A stretch of 64,000 nt of DNA from Tepidanaerobacter syntrophicus (GTDB taxonomy: Bacteria; Bacillota; Thermosediminibacteria; Thermosediminibacterales; Tepidanaerobacteraceae), in the NCBI RefSeq assembly GCF_001485475.2, contig NZ_DF977003.1:248001-312000 (forward strand), written 5' to 3'. Under the pieces are notes generated by a model, which made no database searches, was not told the DNA's origin, and worked only from the letters and a program-made list of their open reading frames with translations. This document shows, one piece after another, positions 6,759 to 60,771 of this stretch (position 1 is the first letter of the stretch; every line of letters starts with the position of its first letter). Position numbers and translations under genes: made by a program.

Positions 6759-8834
6759 ATGGACGTAAAAAAACTCCAAAAACGTCTAAATATTATACTT
6801 GGCGCCGCTCTAGTAATTTTTTTAGTGCTTTTAATAAGCCTCTCTAATCTTCAAATAATAAAAGGCGATGAATATGAGAAACTTGCGGAAGAAAATAGAA
6901 TTAGAATTATTCCAATAACGGCACCGCGGGGAATTTTCAGAGACCGGTATGGCAGAGAATTAGTAAATAACCGGCCGAGCTTTACGGTTTCATATATGAG
7001 CATAAAAGCTGAGGAGTCTGAACAAGAAGAAGTTTTTAAGACTTTAAGAGAAATTCTGGATATTCCTCTTTATACTGATATATCAAATCAAGAATATACT
7101 GTTAGTAAAGATGGCGAAATATTTCTAAGTAAATTGCCGGTGGGAGACGCTGACGGCAATGGAAAAATTGATACCTCGGATATTACAGTGATAGATGGAG
7201 AAAATGGAGAAAAAATTCCAATAAATAAAGCAGATTTAAACACAGGAAAGCTCGTAATCGATAAACCTGCCGGAACCCGGCTTCTTGTGTCATACAAATA
7301 TGACACATTAAAGAACAAGGTTAGGGGTCAAGGCTATAAGCCTGCAAGACTCAAGACAGACGTAGATTTTCAGACTATCGCTGAAATAGAAGAACGCCGC
7401 CTTCCCGGAGTAGTTATAGAAGTAGAGCCTTTAAGGAACTATGTTTATGGAAATACAGCATCTCATGTTTTTGGCTATGTAGGAGAGATAAGCCAAGAAG
7501 AGTTAGAGGCAGACAAAGACGGTACTTACCGCCCTGGGGATGTAGTAGGTAAAATGGGCTTGGAAAAAGTGCTTGAACCCTATTTAAAAGGCACAGATGG
7601 CGGCCAACAAGTAGAAGTCAATGCATCCGGAAAACCGATAAAAGTTCTTGGTGAAAAGGCTCCTGCACCCGGTGACTCCGTAAATTTAACTCTTGATATT
7701 AAATTGCAGCAGGTTGCTGAAACTGCCCTAAAAGAGCAGTTGATAAAGCTCCAGACAGACAAATATAAACCATATCCAAATGCCAAAAGAGGGGCGGTAG
7801 TAGCACTTAATGTAAAAACAGGTGAAGTCTTAGCTATGGCCAGTGTTCCGGATTTTGATCCAAATATGTTTGCAACAGGAATAAGCCAAAAGGAATGGGA
7901 AGAAATATCAAAGAATCCACTTAACCCAATGCTGAACCTTGCCATTAGCGGCACATTCCCACCGGGTTCCGTTTTTAAAATGGTTACTGCTACGGCTGCC
8001 TTGGAAGAAAAGGTAACTACCGAAAAAGAATATATTAGAGATACAGGTGTTTACTGGACTATTTTGCCGAAGAAGTGCTGGAAGGCAGGGGGCCATGGTC
8101 TCGTAAATATGGAAAAAGCTATTGCCCAATCCTGTAATGTATACTTTTATGAAATGGGCCGCAGAGTGGGAATAGATAACCTTGAAAAATATGCAAAAAT
8201 GTATGGCCTAGGCAGTCTTACGGGAATAGAACTTCCAAATGAAAAAGCAGGAACTGTCGCAAGCCGTGAATACAAGAAAAAAACCTTTAGCAATCCTCAA
8301 GATCAAATATGGTACCCTGCCGAGACGCTAGATGCCGCTATCGGCCAGGGATATCAAAGCTTTACACCTATTCAAATTGCAACCTATATTTCGGCTGTTG
8401 CAAATGAAGGCTTTTGGATGAAACCTCATTTAATTAAATCCATAGTTGATTCAAACGGCGACACAGTTCTAGAGAAGAACCCAGAGATCGGCGGTAAAGT
8501 TGATGATGTTTCGAAGAAGACTTTTGAAATAATCAAAAAAGGCATGCGCGCAGCTGCACTGCCTGGAGGAACAGCTTCAAGCGTTTTTGCAAAATTTCCT
8601 ATTTCAGTGGCTGCAAAGACCGGTACTGCTGAATGGGATGTAAGAAAAGACCCTCATGGTTGGTTTGTAGCGTTTGCTCCTTATGAAGACCCTGAAATCG
8701 CCGTGGCTGTATTTATTGAACAAGCAGGCTCAGGAGGAACTACCGGTGGACCTGTGGCAAAAGCAATATTTGAGGAATACTTTCATCTTAACGATAAGAC
8801 TGATACAGCGGAAGACTATCTTGTTCAACCGTAA
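6759..8834 (+). CDS. mrdA: Penicillin-binding protein 2 (elongation transpeptidase) with an EF-hand-like insertion
   Basis: 691 aa class B PBP. Membrane helix at about 11-31, dimerisation or pedestal region to about 300, then the transpeptidase domain with SVFK (Ser404/Lys407), SCN (458-460) and KTGT (620-623). It cross-links peptidoglycan in the elongasome with RodA (12513) and MreBCD (upstream). Unusual: residues 130-141 (DADGNGKIDTSD) match a dockerin-type EF-hand calcium loop and lie in an extra stretch of about 70 residues (about 112-185) in the extracytoplasmic pedestal region. Such a loop is not part of standard PBP2. RBS is weak (TTGAGGGATTTTT). Confidence 0.93.
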   Translation: MDVKKLQKRLNIILGAALVIFLVLLISLSNLQIIKGDEYEKLAEENRIRIIPITAPRGIFRDRYGRELVNNRPSFTVSYMSIKAEESEQEEVFKTLREILDIPLYTDISNQEYTVSKDGEIFLSKLPVGDADGNGKIDTSDITVIDGENGEKIPINKADLNTGKLVIDKPAGTRLLVSYKYDTLKNKVRGQGYKPARLKTDVDFQTIAEIEERRLPGVVIEVEPLRNYVYGNTASHVFGYVGEISQEELEADKDGTYRPGDVVGKMGLEKVLEPYLKGTDGGQQVEVNASGKPIKVLGEKAPAPGDSVNLTLDIKLQQVAETALKEQLIKLQTDKYKPYPNAKRGAVVALNVKTGEVLAMASVPDFDPNMFATGISQKEWEEISKNPLNPMLNLAISGTFPPGSVFKMVTATAALEEKVTTEKEYIRDTGVYWTILPKKCWKAGGHGLVNMEKAIAQSCNVYFYEMGRRVGIDNLEKYAKMYGLGSLTGIELPNEKAGTVASREYKKKTFSNPQDQIWYPAETLDAAIGQGYQSFTPIQIATYISAVANEGFWMKPHLIKSIVDSNGDTVLEKNPEIGGKVDDVSKKTFEIIKKGMRAAALPGGTASSVFAKFPISVAAKTGTAEWDVRKDPHGWFVAFAPYEDPEIAVAVFIEQAGSGGTTGGPVAKAIFEEYFHLNDKTDTAEDYLVQP

Positions 8835-55267: not shown

Positions 55268-55344
55268 CTGGGTGTGGCGCAGTTTGGTAGCGCGCTAGAA
55301 TGGGGTTCTAGAGGCCGGGGGTTCAAGTCCCCCCACTCAGACCA
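55268..55344 (+). tRNA. tRNA-Pro (anticodon GGG), intact; integration site of the adjacent element
   Basis: Full cloverleaf: the seven acceptor pairs CTGGGTG/CACTCAG close (one G-T), D-arm with GGTAGCGCG, anticodon stem CTAGA/TCTAG with loop ATGGGGT (anticodon GGG), T-arm GGGGGTTCAAGTCCCCC, and an encoded CCA end. Its 3' part is copied at 60616-60664, so it is the insertion site of a mobile element; the integrated left end restores the gene. Confidence 0.96.
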
Positions 55345-55346
55345 TT
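55298..55346 (+). repeat. attL: 49-bp direct repeat in the tRNA-Pro 3' end
   Basis: Starts at GAATGGGG in the anticodon arm and runs two bases past CCA. Identical over 49 bp to 60616-60664. This length and position within a tRNA are usual for tyrosine integrase core sites. Confidence 0.93.
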
Positions 55347-55471
55347 TTAAAGAATATCTAAGGTTACAGCAGTTATCCACAGGCTAAAAAGTAAAATGGC
55401 CAGTGCAAGTATCATTTTTAAGTGCCATGACTGCTTTACCTTGTAAAAATATAGGACAGCTTTAATGTAAA

Positions 55472-55487
55472 TTTAGTGTAAGCCGTT
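55472..55487 (+). repeat. Candidate left arm-type integrase site
   Basis: TTTAGTGTAAGCCGTT matches the reverse complement of 60552-60567 at 15 of 16 bases. A related TTTAATGTAA lies just left of it at 55461-55470. Paired inverted sites about 50-125 bp inside both att repeats fit integrase arm binding. Confidence 0.55.
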
Positions 55488-55514
55488 TACCGGAAAGGAG
55501 GTAAGCGGTTTTTT
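55483..55514 (+). promoter_or_regulatory. Terminator-like hairpin containing the integrase ribosome site
   Basis: CCGTTTACC (55483-55491) pairs with GGTAAGCGG (55500-55508), one G-U, followed by six T. The ribosome site GGAAAGGAGG fills the loop and the start of the 3' arm. The TTG start of the integrase overlaps the T run. It could terminate read-through from the tRNA side or gate integrase translation. Confidence 0.6.
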
Positions 55515-56433
55515 GCTGTTTAAATTCGCAATTAAGGACTTTTTAGATGACCGGAAACTTAAAAACCTTTCACCTGCAACGATAAAAAGCTATGAAGTAA
55601 CATTAGAGCATTTCCACAGATACTTGACGCAAAATGAAAAGATTAACGTTGAAGATGTAACCCAAGCAGATATAAAAAGCTATTTAATTTCATGCAGGGA
55701 AGAAGGGGGAAACAGGCCAACGAGCTTAAATCACAAAATAGGAAACCTTAAAGTATTTTTTAACTATATGGCCGACATTGAAACAATAGAAAAAAACCCT
55801 ATGAAGAAGGTTCAGAAGGTAAAAACGGACGTCAAAATCGAGGCTTTTACCGACTATCATATTAAGCAGATGCTAAACTACTACCGGAGAATAAAACAGC
55901 GGAATATGACCCTTTACGCTTATAGGGATTATACAATCATAGTCACACTCTTAGGCACAGGGATAAGGCGAGGGGAGCTATGTAATTTAACATGGCATGA
56001 TGTAGACCTAGCAAACAGCAAAATGACAATATACGGCAAGGCCAGAAGACAGCGAACAATACCATTGACCGACAAGCTAAAACAAGAGCTTATAGAATGG
56101 CGGTTATTTAACGAAAAACACTTTTACAGCTTTACACCAGAGCGAAACGTGTTCACTGACGGTACAGGGAAAAGACTTACTGAAAATGCCGTAGGGAATA
56201 TATTTAAACGATTAGCCAAGATAATGAACTTTAGAGATGTCAGAGTATCGGCTCATACCTTCAGGCATACATTTGCAAAGAACTGGATTTTAAGCGGTGG
56301 GGATGTTTTTTCACTACAACGGATATTAGGACACTCTACTTTAGACATGACAAATAAATATGTGTCACTGTTTGGAAGTGCTATCAAAGAGCAAAACGAA
56401 AAGCATAATCCATTAAATAATTTAGACATATAA
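55513..56433 (+). CDS. int: Tyrosine recombinase / integrase
   Basis: 306 aa. N-terminal SAM-like core-binding domain (about 1-95, LSPATIKSYEVTLEHFHRYL) and C-terminal catalytic domain with Arg in GTGIRRGELCNLTW, HxxR in HTFRHTF, the second His in LGHSTLD and the nucleophile Tyr in MTNKYVSL. All catalytic residues are present. TTG start at 55513. It is the gene nearest the tRNA, as expected for the enzyme that integrates the element there. Confidence 0.93.
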   Translation: MLFKFAIKDFLDDRKLKNLSPATIKSYEVTLEHFHRYLTQNEKINVEDVTQADIKSYLISCREEGGNRPTSLNHKIGNLKVFFNYMADIETIEKNPMKKVQKVKTDVKIEAFTDYHIKQMLNYYRRIKQRNMTLYAYRDYTIIVTLLGTGIRRGELCNLTWHDVDLANSKMTIYGKARRQRTIPLTDKLKQELIEWRLFNEKHFYSFTPERNVFTDGTGKRLTENAVGNIFKRLAKIMNFRDVRVSAHTFRHTFAKNWILSGGDVFSLQRILGHSTLDMTNKYVSLFGSAIKEQNEKHNPLNNLDI

Positions 56434-56445
56434 GGAGGCCGAAAC

Positions 56446-56628
56446 ATGGAAGATTTAAACATGAACGACATTCAATTTATCTTGAGGGCGGTTTTAGTAT
56501 ATACCTCAAGTGTTATTAATGATTTAAGGCCAGATAACGAAGACCTTTGGCTTAAAGGTGAATTAAAGCAGGCCAAGGGAACATTAAATAAACTTAATAA
56601 CATGCAGATAAACAGACTGGATATATAG
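56446..56628 (+). CDS. Small element-encoded protein, unknown (60 aa)
   Basis: 60 aa, predicted mostly helical, starting MEDLNMNDIQFILRAVLVY. A strong AAGGAGG precedes the ATG and it lies 12 bp after the integrase, so it is likely translated from the same mRNA. The size would allow an excisionase-like role, but no wHTH pattern is clear. Not recognised. Confidence 0.65.
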   Translation: MEDLNMNDIQFILRAVLVYTSSVINDLRPDNEDLWLKGELKQAKGTLNKLNNMQINRLDI

Positions 56629-56641
56629 GGAGGCTGGAAGA

Positions 56642-56798
56642 ATGGATAATTTGAACGCAAGGGAACTAAAAACCTTTATCCGCAGTTTTCGCAGGCCTTA
56701 AAAAAGGGGGGCAGGCGAGGAAAAACAAGTATCCGGCCTTAATGGCTGCCCTAAAAAAGGGGAAAGAAGTTATTGATAGAGAAGTAGAGAGTGCCTAA
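56642..56798 (+). pseudogene. Small ORF apparently broken by frameshifts
   Basis: GGGAGG is followed by an ATG at 56642 and 19 codons (MDNLNARELKTFIRSF) to a stop at 56701. A different frame then stays open from the A6G6 run (56700-56711) to a TAA at 56798, with coding-like sequence (KYPALMAALKKGKEVIDREV). Joining the segments gives a plausible 50-residue protein, so this looks like a gene with one or two indels, or a slippage product at the homopolymer. Could also be chance. Confidence 0.4.
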
Positions 56799-56848
56799 AC
56801 CAACTAGAACAGATAAAAAATTATCCTTGCAGAAGGGAGGTTTTAAGA

Positions 56849-56998
56849 GTGCCAAAAGAATATGACGAGCTATGGCAAGAATTACAAGAGAGAGCCAAAT
56901 ATCCGATTGAAAGACTAATTAGGCAAGGCGTAGAACTTGCAACATTAAAAGCAATCTTCGAGGACTTAGCTAATAAAATGTTAAAAATAAATGCTTAA
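56849..56998 (+). CDS. Small element-encoded protein, unknown (49 aa)
   Basis: 49 aa from GTG 56849 with GGGAGG 8 bp upstream. It begins MPKEYDELWQELQERAKYP and looks helical and charged, like many small plasmid or phage proteins. Not recognised. The ribosome site and clean open frame support it. Confidence 0.6.
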   Translation: MPKEYDELWQELQERAKYPIERLIRQGVELATLKAIFEDLANKMLKINA

Positions 56999-57026
56999 AA
57001 AATACCTTCTAATACAGTTGTATCAA

Positions 57027-57055
57027 TGGACATAGCCTATTAAACATAGTATAAT
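57027..57055 (+). promoter_or_regulatory. Promoter of the HTH gene, with overlapping repeats
   Basis: TGGACA (57027-57032), 17-bp spacer, TATAAT (57050-57055). ACATAG occurs at 57030-57035 and 57044-57049 within it, a possible site for autorepression by the HTH protein. Confidence 0.65.
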
Positions 57056-57096
57056 AGATATAAGGAAACATAAGTTTGCAAAGGAGGCTTGAGAGC

Positions 57097-57342
57097 ATGA
57101 CCAGACTTAAGGCGGCAATACTAGAGCAGGGATTGACACAAAGAGAATTAGCACAGATGATAAATCAATCACCTTCAAGTATTTCACAAGTTATAAACGG
57201 CTTTATGAGGCCGTGGCCGAAACTTCGACGGGAAATAGCCGAGGCTTTACATATACCAGAGAATGAACTATTTGACGAGGAAGGAAAGCTAATCGAAAGC
57301 GACGCGGAATATATCAAGATACCATTAAAGAAATATGCGTAG
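57097..57342 (+). CDS. XRE-type HTH transcriptional regulator
   Basis: 81 aa. A five-helix Cro/CI-type domain (MTRLKAAILEQGLTQRELAQ, SPSSISQVINGFMRPWPKL) fills residues 1-60. ATG 57097 is fixed by AAAGGAGG at 57080-57087. It has its own promoter and a terminator behind it, and probably controls itself and the downstream Rep unit. Element copy control or lysogeny-like repression is inferred. Confidence 0.87.
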   Translation: MTRLKAAILEQGLTQRELAQMINQSPSSISQVINGFMRPWPKLRREIAEALHIPENELFDEEGKLIESDAEYIKIPLKKYA

Positions 57343-57354
57343 AACGGTAGGGTA

Positions 57355-57387
57355 GGGGATAGTCTTATTATGGCTATTCCCCTTTTT
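57355..57387 (+). terminator. Terminator of the HTH gene
   Basis: GGGGATAG (57355-57362) pairs with CTATTCCCC (57374-57382), one bulged base, followed by five T. Separates the regulator from the DUF5659-Rep unit. Confidence 0.8.
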
Positions 57388-57423
57388 GTAATGTAATGTA
57401 GCAGATCAAGAAGGATAAAAACG

Positions 57424-57453
57424 TTAGAATAATTAATATAAAGCCAGTATAAT
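57424..57453 (+). promoter_or_regulatory. Candidate promoter of the DUF5659-Rep unit
   Basis: TATAAT at 57448-57453 with a weak TTAGAA 18 bp upstream, 26 bp before the GTG at 57479. The poor -35 box leaves room for regulation. Confidence 0.5.
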
Positions 57454-57478
57454 ACTCATATTCAGGGAGGTTTAAAAG

Positions 57479-57700
57479 GTGAGAGAATACCGGACAAAGT
57501 CAATTAACATTGCAACGGTATTATTAACACAAGGGGTAAAACTTAAGCGAGTGGAAGGAGACAGGGAGAAGTATTTCGTTTTTGAAGATACCGAGGACAG
57601 GCCTAAGATTATCCAGGACTTTATAAACAAGGAACTCAAGGTAAATATAAACGACTTCTTAAACAATCAGAAAAACCTAAAAAACCTTATTTTTTCATAA
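57479..57700 (+). CDS. DUF5659-like small protein
   Basis: 73 aa from GTG 57479 with AGGGAGG upstream. The pattern (hydrophobic LAT-like start INIATVLLTQGVKLKRVEG, an FVFED strand, short helix, then a C-terminal NLKNLIF) resembles DUF5659 proteins of phages and plasmids. Unknown function; 33 bp before the Rep-like gene. Confidence 0.68.
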   Translation: MREYRTKSINIATVLLTQGVKLKRVEGDREKYFVFEDTEDRPKIIQDFINKELKVNINDFLNNQKNLKNLIFS

Positions 57701-57733
57701 TTAATATTCATATTCAAAAGGAGAGTGGGAAAG

Positions 57734-58846
57734 GTGGTAAATTCATTTCCTTTACCAAGTGCATTGATAGAGGATAGCGAGGATTTTAAGCGGTGTTCAC
57801 CAACGGAAAAGCTATATATGTTTTATATTCTAAGTGAGTTAAACCTTCATCAGTGGCAAGAACGGAAAGAGAATTACTTTAAAGATGATATGTCAATAGC
57901 CGTTACATTAAACGTAAAAGAAGATACTATAAGGAGAGCTAGAAGGAAATTTCAAAAGCTAGGATATATTGACGTTAGGCCCGGTTTTAGAAATCCGGCA
58001 ACAGGCCAAGCGGTGGCGACAACGTATTTAGGCAGTAAATGGCTTGACCTAGTGGAAAAGATAAAAGAGGCTAATAAAGAAGGCCCAGAGGACGAAGGGG
58101 ATAAAGACCCAGAGAGCGGAAACAATGAGAAAGGCCGATTTAGTTTAATTCATAGATATACTTTTTACTCTATGCTTGACAAGATGAGGAAAGGCAGATT
58201 TGACAGCTATGACATAGTAACACTTGTGTATATTTATTATTTACGAGATAAATTCAAAGACAAGAAAGAAGAAGTTTACAAAGACGAAAAATACGATTTT
58301 TATATAACAAAAAAGGAATTTAGCGACTTGACGAATATGAGAGCATCAAAATTAGAAGAATGTATTATTAACCTTTATGAAAAGATTACATTTAAAGACG
58401 GTAGTCATTACTTTGAGTATGAAGACCTTTACCACAGATGGGAGTTTAATAATATTATATGGCTTGCAGACCCAAGCGACGATGATAATAACCGTAGTAA
58501 TTACGAGGCCATGAAGGAAAGACTAAAGGCACAGATAGATAAGGCTAAAGAAGATAAGCAAAACGAGCCGGGATTAAAGTTTATTAGTGCCTATAGGTGG
58601 ATGTATAGGCAACACATGGATAAAGATATTGAGCGATATTATGGAGATGTAAAACAGGCAACAGAGCTTTTAGAAATGTTTACAGCAGAGCAGATGCAGG
58701 AAATGGCCCGATGGTATATTACAGCAGACAGACACGAATTGCCGGCATCATGTCAAGCGAAAAAGACCAGAACTATAAGGGACTTCTTAAATAACGTTGA
58801 AGTTATTTTCAGAGAGTTAAAGGATTTAGCTAAATCTATTAAGTAG
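57734..58846 (+). CDS. Candidate replication initiator of the element
   Basis: About 370 aa. The N-terminal 90 residues look like a replication-initiator winged helix (SPTEKLYMFYILSEL, AVTLNVKEDTIRRARRKFQKLG, YIDVRPG). An acidic linker (about 115-135) and a second helical region follow. The C-terminal stretch (ISAYRWMYRQHM ... LLEMFTAEQMQEMARWYI) recalls DnaD-like or helicase-loader tails. GTG 57734 has AAGGAGAG 8 bp upstream. Five iterons begin inside its last codons, typical of Rep-ori layout. I cannot assign a named Rep family. Confidence 0.65.
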   Translation: MVNSFPLPSALIEDSEDFKRCSPTEKLYMFYILSELNLHQWQERKENYFKDDMSIAVTLNVKEDTIRRARRKFQKLGYIDVRPGFRNPATGQAVATTYLGSKWLDLVEKIKEANKEGPEDEGDKDPESGNNEKGRFSLIHRYTFYSMLDKMRKGRFDSYDIVTLVYIYYLRDKFKDKKEEVYKDEKYDFYITKKEFSDLTNMRASKLEECIINLYEKITFKDGSHYFEYEDLYHRWEFNNIIWLADPSDDDNNRSNYEAMKERLKAQIDKAKEDKQNEPGLKFISAYRWMYRQHMDKDIERYYGDVKQATELLEMFTAEQMQEMARWYITADRHELPASCQAKKTRTIRDFLNNVEVIFRELKDLAKSIK

Positions 58847-58943
58847 TACAAAAGTAAGAGATAGACAGTTTTATTAAGTGGGATATATTAAGTAGTACGT
58901 ATTAAGTGGACTAAAAATGATACTTATTAAGTAGTACAAAAGT
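58838..58943 (+). repeat. Five iterons: candidate replication origin
   Basis: ATTAAGT(A/G)G recurs at 58838, 58873, 58887, 58901 and 58926. Three copies read ATTAAGTAGTAC, and the outer two extend to the same 18 bp (ATTAAGTAGTACAAAAGT). The middle three are spaced exactly 14 bp. The first spans the Rep stop codon. An inverted GTACTACT and an AT-rich stretch follow to about 59010. Pattern typical of a Rep-bound origin. Confidence 0.75.
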
Positions 58944-59019
58944 GAATTCAATCTATCATTTCCGTACTACTCATATAAAAGTACTTAAATAATCATTATA
59001 ATAGTATTAATAGACACTC

Positions 59020-59052
59020 TCATCATCTGACGATGATGACCAGCCTTTTTTA
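59020..59052 (+). terminator. Hairpin with T tract after the iterons
   Basis: TCATCATC (59020-59027) pairs with GATGATGA (59032-59039) around TGAC; CCAGCC and six T follow. Probably the terminator of the Rep transcript, or an origin hairpin. Confidence 0.6.
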
Positions 59053-59233
59053 TTTATTTTATTTATAGCGAAAGCGAGAAGGATTTAATTGTTACTAGTG
59101 ATACTATATGCCTTTAGCAACAAAAAAGAACAACATCCGCTTATAGACAGTCTGGCGACACCTGCTATAACCAATACGTCCATAAAGGCTATTTCTGGAC
59201 GAGTTGATATGAAAGGTATATAAAAACATAGGC

Positions 59234-59270
59234 AGACGATTAAAAAGGCTAAAAAGGCATAATTTGGAGG
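59234..59270 (+). repeat. 37-bp direct repeat, copy 1
   Basis: Runs from AGACGATT through two AAAAAGGC units to AATTTGGAGG. Identical to 59371-59407, 137 bp away. Flanks are also similar upstream (CGAG ... ATATAAAA), so the repeated unit is wider but diverged. Confidence 0.85.
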
Positions 59271-59370
59271 TTTAACTATAAAGGAATGTATAGAGTGAAT
59301 GATATAACTGTAACGCTCAAAAAGGCCGTTTTTAGCCGAGATTACATAAAAAGCATATAAAACTATACAA

Positions 59371-59407
59371 AGACGATTAAAAAGGCTAAAAAGGCATAAT
59401 TTGGAGG
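59371..59407 (+). repeat. 37-bp direct repeat, copy 2
   Basis: Second identical copy. Partial relatives occur at about 59950-59976 (AAAGATAATCAAAAAGCC) and 60273-60291 (TTAAAAAAGGCC, TAATTTG). In both full copies stop codons interrupt any peptide frame just upstream. Confidence 0.85.
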
Positions 59408-59637
59408 CGTAAATATATCAAAGGATAGTTAAACGAGGTAACCTAACAAAACCTTACATTTACACCTTAACAATACTTAACATTATCGATTTATTCGATA
59501 CCCTAAAAAAGACGGCGGGAGCCACTTTAATTAAATCCGATACTTGATAACCTTTAGGGGTTGAAAGGTTTATTTTCAGAATATGTAGGTGTCGGCGGCA
59601 CGCCATTGGCGTCTTGTTTATCGTTAGATAAACAAGT

Positions 59638-59742
59638 ATTATTAGTACTGTTATTATTAATACTGTTACTATTAGTTTCCGGATTTTCCGTATCCGGTGT
59701 TTCCGTATCCGGTAATACCGTATCCGGTATTTTAGGAAACGG
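59638..59742. repeat. Tandem 15-bp repeats
   Basis: Seven 15-bp units: two ATTATTA(G/A)TACTGTT, one transition unit, three ending CCGTATCCGG (or TTCCGTATCCGG), and a degenerate last unit. On the minus strand one frame reads PDTVLPDTETPDTENPET, a proline-aspartate-threonine repeat typical of a surface or linker region, but with a stop upstream and no start. Confidence 0.8.
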
Positions 59743-60492
59743 TAAAAGTCTATATATATTCCTGCCAAACGTGCCATTTTTACCTTTTTCGGGGTTGAAA
59801 GGTAGTTACTACTGTCAATAACTAAGATACATTAGGGTTAATGTTATCAATAACAAGGTTAATGCAATCATTTATAACCTAAGAAAACCTAAGATTATAT
59901 GCAACATTCGACGTAAGGAAAGGTAAGGTTTTATGTGTTACTAAAATATACAAAGATAATCAAAAAGCCTAAAAAGGGGCAGTCGACGAATTTCGTCGCT
60001 CGTTTTAATTCCTTTGGAAGGGACAAGATACCCCCCAGTCGCTCATTTACTTTTTTATGTTCGCAAACCGAGTGTCCTACCTTCAAACAACACACAGGCT
60101 TTGCGCGTAACCCCCTACCTCGAAAGCGTTACAGAAGAATGTCTTTTTAAAGGGATTAAACCGGACGTAATGAGAATTAGGCCTTATAAGCATTAAGATG
60201 CAAGATTTTAACCGGTAATCGCAGAAAAGACATTAGCAGGATTACAACACTAACACTATCAAAAGAAGGTTAAAAAAGGCCTTAATTTGTCTACGTGTGG
60301 CGGACTTTTTGAGGTTTTACGATAAATAATTATTTGTTAACCGTTATTTTATGCTTTAATAGAAAGTAAAGAACCTCCAAAGCCTTATATATCAAAGGGT
60401 AGGAGGTTTTAGTTATTTATAGATAAAATACAACGTCCGATAATATATGTTATGTAAACTACCATTACTTTATCAAAATACACAATTAGGTA

Positions 60493-60519
60493 TTGACATT
60501 TATATTATTATTATATACA
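60493..60519 (+). promoter_or_regulatory. Weak candidate promoter pointing at attR
   Basis: A consensus TTGACA (60493-60498) is followed at 15 bp by TATACA (60514-60519). In the integrated state it faces the antiporter gene tail-on; in an excised circle it would face the integrase across the joined att site. The -10 box and spacing are poor. Confidence 0.35.
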
Positions 60520-60551
60520 CTTTAACCAGAAAAGTAAATATTAAAAAATAT

Positions 60552-60567
60552 AACGGTTTACACTAAA
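60552..60567 (-). repeat. Candidate right arm-type integrase site
   Basis: AACGGTTTACACTAAA, inverse of the left site 55472-55487 with one mismatch, 48 bp inside attR. Confidence 0.55.
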
Positions 60568-60615
60568 AAAATGGTTTAGCAATGGATTATATCTGAATAC
60601 ATATCATTCAAGAGC

Positions 60616-60664
60616 GAATGGGGTTCTAGAGGCCGGGGGTTCAAGTCCCCCCACTCAGACCATT
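60616..60664 (+). repeat. attR: 49-bp direct repeat (tRNA-Pro 3' fragment)
   Basis: Copy of 55298-55346 holding the anticodon loop through CCA. It lacks the 5' half of a tRNA, so it is not a gene. Marks the right end of the element. Confidence 0.93.
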
Positions 60665-60720: not shown

Positions 60721-60771
60721 AAAAGACCACCTGTTTTAATTGCGTTAAAATGATTAGACAGGTGGTCTTTT
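60721..60771 (-). terminator. Terminator of the NhaC-like gene
   Basis: AAAAGACCACCTGT (60721-60734) pairs perfectly with 60758-60771, with an inner TTTTAA/TTAAAA stem. It lies 5 bp after the antiporter stop on the minus strand and should also block plus-strand transcripts leaving the element. Confidence 0.85.

Follow-up and report, generated by a model that had tools for sequence, protein, structure and literature searches.

A 5.3-kb element in tRNA-Pro of Tepidanaerobacter syntrophicus with features of a minimal integrating plasmid and of small proviruses

Boundaries and target site of the element

We analysed a window of 64,000 nucleotides from Tepidanaerobacter syntrophicus (NCBI RefSeq assembly GCF_001485475.2, contig NZ_DF977003.1; G000:C9:248001-312000 in our numbering), which contains a compact element with its own integrase and a putative replication initiator (Rep), present as a single copy in the genome. 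All positions below are those of the window. The only tRNA gene that ARAGORN detected in the window is an intact tRNA-Pro(GGG) at 55268–55344 on the plus strand (Rfam tRNA, 61.5 bits). A perfect 49-bp direct repeat occupies 55298–55346 and 60616–60664 (both plus strand) with a spacing of 5318 bp, and the similarity between the two copies extends to 71 nt at 87% identity. Given the position of the tRNA gene, the left attachment (att) copy forms the 3′ part of the intact target gene, and the right copy is a 49-bp fragment of the tRNA 3′ end. An Rfam tmRNA match at 60616–60662 corresponds to this fragment and not to a tmRNA.

The same locus appears unoccupied in a genome of the same genus (G001), where the order thrC-thrB-tRNA-Pro is retained and a terminator hairpin lies 83 bp after the tRNA. 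The matching hairpin of our window is located to the right of the element, at 60721–60771; the tRNA-Pro of G001 is thus followed by what is here the right flank, and its site is empty. The tRNA-Pro site of another genome (G002) also lacks an integrase gene (int). In that genome, a stretch of about 60 bp following the tRNA is similar to the left end of the element and may be a scar or native DNA common to both. A terminator-like hairpin in the interval between tRNA and int (55480–55513, plus strand) has a similar counterpart after the empty tRNA-Pro of G002. We considered an inverted 16-bp repeat (55472–55487 and 60552–60567) as a pair of integrase arm sites and set it aside, because its left copy lies within this hairpin.

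A preliminary description of this DNA, made from its sequence, had proposed integration in tRNA-Pro on the strength of the perfect repeat and the intact tRNA at one end. Both features stand, and the empty tRNA-Pro site that it suggested looking for in relatives was found in G001. A stable backbone shared by relatives at a non-tRNA site, which it had named as one outcome that would refute its reading, was not seen; the relative's site is empty.

Integrase, regulator and small open reading frames

The left and central parts of the element are read from the plus strand throughout. The first gene, at 55513–56433, encodes a tyrosine integrase of 306 aa from a XerC-like family (Pfam PF00589, Phage_integrase, E=4e-29), whose six catalytic residues R152, K176, H248, R251, H274 and Y283 are invariant across relatives. 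Two short open reading frames (ORFs) of no known family follow, one of 60 aa immediately after int (56446–56628) and one of 49 aa (56849–56998). Further downstream lie genes for a Cro/C1-type helix-turn-helix (HTH) regulator of 81 aa (57097–57342; HTH_3, E=8e-10) and for a DUF5659 protein of 73 aa (57479–57700; PF18903, E=4e-26), succeeded by a 373-aa ORF described below. The frames of int, HTH_3, DUF5659 and the 373-aa ORF are all intact. PADLOC matches of the HTH protein were dismissed as generic HTH matches.

DUF5659 lies directly ahead of the replication gene not only in the window but also in three related elements (L047, L048 and L049). We found no mention of this family in the literature searched, and its position beside replication genes provides a first functional hint. 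Short proteins that are weakly DUF5659-like precede the replication gene in two further related elements, at 7231–7458 of L136 (Pfam DUF5659, E=0.01) and at 7439–7621 of L139 (no Pfam match); both match phrog_21297. In view of this weak likeness, the family may be wider than its Pfam definition.

A putative initiator with iterons

The 373-aa ORF (57725–58846, plus strand) probably encodes the replication initiator. It matched no Pfam family above the cut-off and has no sequence relative in 72,556 plasmids. Among phages it returned one insignificant match (E=0.6, a replication initiation protein of an Enterobacter phage), and viral contigs yielded none, with either the single sequence or a 3-row alignment as query. 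Its single sequence also found no relative among genome contigs, and a second scan of these returned solely the contig from G183 that was already known. Clear homologues occur in two of 398 genomes of the phylum (G322 and G183), with a marginal case in G100; a class-wide search and two further sets of relatives added nothing to these. Judged by sequence, Rep is a rare orphan with two distant relatives.

In G322, the region around the homologue resembles a prophage, with genes for tape measure and small terminase, and the 3′ end of the rep homologue bears an array of iterons of 14 bp. In G183, a transposase insertion splits the rep homologue, one half of which is found at each end of a contig of 11,048 bp (C95, L064), which therefore looks circular. 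The contig also has a gene for a serine recombinase and a gene pair of toxin-antitoxin-like type.

The window has the iteron arrangement in common with G322. Five iterons with the core TATTAAGT[A/G]G span 58834–58943 (plus strand) and form a candidate origin. All five copies of the motif ATTAAGT[A/G]G in the 64 kb lie within 58838–58934, from the rep stop codon onwards. An AlphaFold prediction of Rep from the single sequence was not usable (predicted local distance difference test, pLDDT, 38.6); a model built from a four-row alignment reached a mean pLDDT of 59.7. The best structural matches of residues 4–246 of this model are RepE54 of F, π of R6K and RctB, with Z up to 8.7 across about 180 residues. 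The sequence profile of Rep found nothing in the PDB. From its remote homologues and this low-confidence fold, we propose with moderate confidence that Rep is an iteron-binding initiator.

A dif-type site with an altered centre

A predicted dif-type XerCD site, ACGTCCGATAA-TATATG-TTATGTAAACT, is located at 60433–60460 (plus strand). It was first recognised as a 38-bp match within the genome. The host chromosomal dif, ACGTCCGATAA-TATATC-TTATGTAAACT at G000:C9:432954-432981, has identical Xer arms and differs by one central base; GC skew reverses sign at its position. The preliminary description had listed int, an HTH gene whose neighbour it assigned to DUF5659, a Rep-like gene and iterons. This inventory and the full catalytic set that it ascribed to the integrase are borne out, with homologues and predicted fold supporting an initiator, but the dif site had been overlooked.

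The dif pattern is present in 75 of 121 genomes, usually once. A second mismatch-free site occurs in only three of the 121 (G000, G013 and G040). All three extra sites lie inside an element with a homologous integrase and have a centre unlike that of the host: the paired centres are TATATG/TATATC in G000, TCTATC/TATATA in G013 and TGAATA/TGAACA in G040. Across 15 elements of the integrase family described below, 7 carry a dif-like site with at most one arm mismatch and 12 carry one with at most three. Twenty shuffled sets gave no such site with up to two mismatches, and two in total with three.

In capsid-coding members of the family, the strong dif-like sites adjoin the portal gene (L136 at 12699, L137 at 5700, L139 at 13633, L140 at 12390, L047 at 19205 and L052 at 4916). 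The Xer arms of these portal-adjacent sites are conserved and their centres vary, while their position is constant.

The centres of dif sites are known to diverge between replicons of the same cell (PMC2533119), and altered dif sites also occur in phages that use dif for integration (PMC5357621). Given that our element encodes an integrase and occupies a tRNA gene, its dif more likely serves to resolve dimers.

Relationship to small capsid-coding proviruses

Integrases about 50–60% identical to that of the element lie near tRNA genes in G013, G022, G040, G076, G087 and G114, the last of which has a second copy at 41% identity. Relatives were also found on 21 IMG/VR contigs, most of them 12–19 kb long. 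The window integrase falls within a clade found mainly in these 12–19-kb proviruses (support 99/98), near its base. Most of the members examined encode a scaffold, an SU10-type capsid, a DHH-like protein, small and large terminases and a portal in similar order, and have no recognised tail or lysis genes. In two genomes the pattern differs: the element of G022 does have tail, amidase and holin-like genes, and both elements of G114 carry other cargo and no capsid genes.

Comparing the element with the small proviruses of this clade (G013/L047, G076/L049, G040/L052 and L098–L118 from IMG/VR) reveals several common features. The integrase is shared, at 47–60% identity in most, and the proviruses adjoin a tRNA gene wherever the flank is present; in G013 and G040 it is tRNA-Pro, as in the element. 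L047 and L049 show the same order of DUF5659 ahead of the replication gene, and several proviruses, like the element, have a dif-like site, theirs near the portal gene. However, the proviruses measure 12–19 kb and carry scaffold, capsid, terminase and portal genes, whereas the element lacks these and has a different Rep. Profiles of capsid, scaffold, terminase and portal families found none in six frames of the element (best E 0.04), so that the scaffold, SU10-type capsid, large terminase and portal typical of the proviruses are missing, while membership of the integrase clade, the DUF5659-replication order and the dif-like site are present. Because of the shared integrase, tRNA choice, gene order and dif, together with the phage debris described below, the element looks like a reduced, capsid-less relative of these proviruses. 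It had been put forward as a candidate for a little-described class; these ties show that it is not isolated.

The larger members deserve attention in their own right. The family of integrative elements of 12–19 kb represented by L047, L049, L052 and L132–L140 (G013, G076, G040 and IMG/VR) encodes scaffold, SU10-type capsid, terminases and portal, but no tail or lysis gene was recognised; its members could be satellites that form capsids, or else a group of small proviruses not yet described. In L048, three consecutive tRNA-Pro att copies (G022:C1:2226181, 2241800 and 2244159) enclose insertion sequence elements and tail genes, a layout suggestive of two tandem elements (15.6 and 2.4 kb).

Phage-gene debris and the gene-poor right part

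A small-terminase-like frame remnant at about 56720–56796 (plus strand) sits between the two short family-less ORFs. It matches residues 176–201 of 319 of phrog_309 (E=2e-6), lies in a broken frame and is 60–68% identical over 25 aa to terminases of Firmicute phages. Such a remnant would suit a minimal phage satellite, in which a helper phage induces excision and packages an element that keeps only integrase, regulator and replication genes. This minimal design is the same as that of the phage-inducible chromosomal minimalist islands (PICMIs; PMC10803314), the integrase clade is common to capsid-coding elements, and a tailed-phage prophage resides in the genome. That prophage, the one detected (G000:C5, ~103–130 kb; L088 and L089), has genes for portal, HK97-type capsid, tape measure and terminases including the small terminase. 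A search for a shared packaging site, however, found no 16-mer in common between prophage and element, and thus no evidence of a joint pac or cos site. The element moreover has no intact gene for packaging, capsid redirection, AlpA or a primase, and iterons and dif suit plasmid upkeep better than helper-driven concatemers. We therefore regard a satellite as unlikely, and the earlier proposal of movement by an unknown helper finds no evidence here.

At 59557–59805, on the minus strand, lies a probable remnant of a phage replication gene of the DnaD/HTH_36 type, comprising the wing and a repetitive linker. Its DNA matches DnaD genes of Listeria and Geobacillus phages, and the proteins align at 31% identity over 75 aa; Pfam, PHROGs and tblastn against phages gave nothing. 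Owing to these blanks and to the low complexity of the linker, we hold this assignment with moderate confidence. In the gene-poor right part, a 118-nt repeat is also present, in two direct copies that are 77% identical (59163–59417). An int-like piece at ~59292–59402 was judged too weak (E 0.001, family profile with filters off).

Terminase and DnaD-type debris, the large gene-poor right part and the retained provirus-family integrase, DUF5659 and dif would also be expected of a dead remnant, that is, a provirus of the related family now trapped in the chromosome after losing its block of capsid and packaging genes. Against this, the att copies are perfect over 49 bp, the int, HTH, DUF5659 and rep frames are intact, and a close relative has an empty site. 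Neither capsid nor portal nor large terminase left any trace that family profiles could detect, and Rep has no detectable relation to the replication genes of the proviruses. A dead remnant is consequently quite improbable. The preliminary description had counted a match to a truncated prophage with its remainder nearby as refuting; profile search revealed no prophage remainder within the element. Its statement that transfer and capsid genes are unrecognisable holds in so far as family profiles detect no capsid or packaging gene in six frames and the ORFs include no relaxase, but it had missed the small-terminase and DnaD-type debris.

The stretch 58947–60430 is gene-poor and has strong DNA secondary structure (z −4.0 at 59480–59780), as might be expected if an unrecognised origin of transfer (oriT) let a conjugative helper mobilise the element. 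Yet the structured stretch overlaps the repetitive linker of the DnaD-type remnant, and each of the region's six short matches to plasmids is to a record typed as non-mobilizable. With no relaxase or mobilisation protein among the ORFs, an oriT alone is possible, and we consider an integrative mobilisable element (IME) very improbable.

Discussion

We propose, at a probability of about 0.58, that the element is a minimal integrating plasmid-like element of phage ancestry that resides in a Firmicute tRNA-Pro gene. Its integrase would recombine the two 49-bp att copies and release a 5.3-kb circle. Rep, a putative tandem winged-helix initiator, would bind the iterons and start theta replication, with the HTH protein acting as a repressor. 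Host XerC/XerD would resolve circle dimers at the dif carried by the element, and the altered 6-bp centre of this site could prevent recombination with the chromosomal dif. The integrase would reinsert the circle into tRNA-Pro. The element or parts of it probably derive from the small capsid-coding proviruses that harbour its closest integrase relatives. Replication as a circle, already envisaged in the preliminary description, appears likely from the initiator-like Rep, the iterons and dif.

Several observations weigh against this proposal. Excision, circles, replication and Xer action are all deduced from sequence. The mean pLDDT of 59.7 of the Rep model is low-confidence, Foldseek gave no match at E≤0.001 and only weak winged-helix ones, and a Z near 8 can reflect a common arrangement. 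The two dif centres in G000 differ by a single base. The terminase and DnaD-type debris and the ~1.7 kb that hold no clear genes are signs of decay, and no gene for partition, toxin-antitoxin or transfer could be recognised in the element.

More speculatively, the element might belong to an unnamed, tRNA-integrating Firmicute group that alternates between chromosome and plasmid and uses a private dif with an altered centre to resolve dimers. The larger members, in which tail and lysis genes are not detectable, would form capsids, perhaps as satellites, and the element would be a capsid-less parasite or derivative of them. We offer this wider picture tentatively and think it rather doubtful.

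As an integrating plasmid-like element, it may rank among the smaller integrating replicons that have both integrase and initiator of their own, and it links integrating replicons to small proviruses. Host-identical arms around an altered centre suggest a simple way in which an integrated circle could employ host Xer without rearranging the chromosome.

The overall design is reminiscent of the PICMI satellites of Vibrionaceae, which span 6.1 kb and consist of int, regulator, primase, small ORFs and a large non-coding stretch (PMC10803314). Element and PICMIs share the size class and the combination of int, regulator, replication gene, small ORFs and long non-coding stretch. However, the element lacks AlpA and a DUF3987/DUF5906 primase and does not lie beside fis; it has an iteron Rep and dif instead. 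Where phage-inducible chromosomal islands (PICIs) and PICMIs have an AlpA-type regulator and a primase-type gene, we found a generic HTH_3 protein and a Rep without primase match, and of their packaging features there is a small-terminase remnant only and no word in common with the resident prophage.

Integrative mobile elements exploiting Xer (IMEX), such as CTX-phi, VGJ-phi and TLC-phi (PMC5357621), also carry dif-like sites with altered centres. Whereas these integrate at dif via host Xer, the element has an integrase of its own and occupies a tRNA-Pro gene 124 kb away from the host dif. With iteron plasmids of the RepE/π type it shares a probable initiator fold, iterons at the candidate origin and a predicted dimer-resolution site for host XerCD. 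Unlike them, it is integrated in the chromosome through its own integrase between att repeats, as expected of an integrating plasmid, and its Rep, identified from remote homologues and a low-confidence fold, is unmatched by sequence among the plasmids searched. On the features tested, membership of the PICMIs, IMEs and IMEX failed, and the element seems to work like an integrating iteron plasmid.

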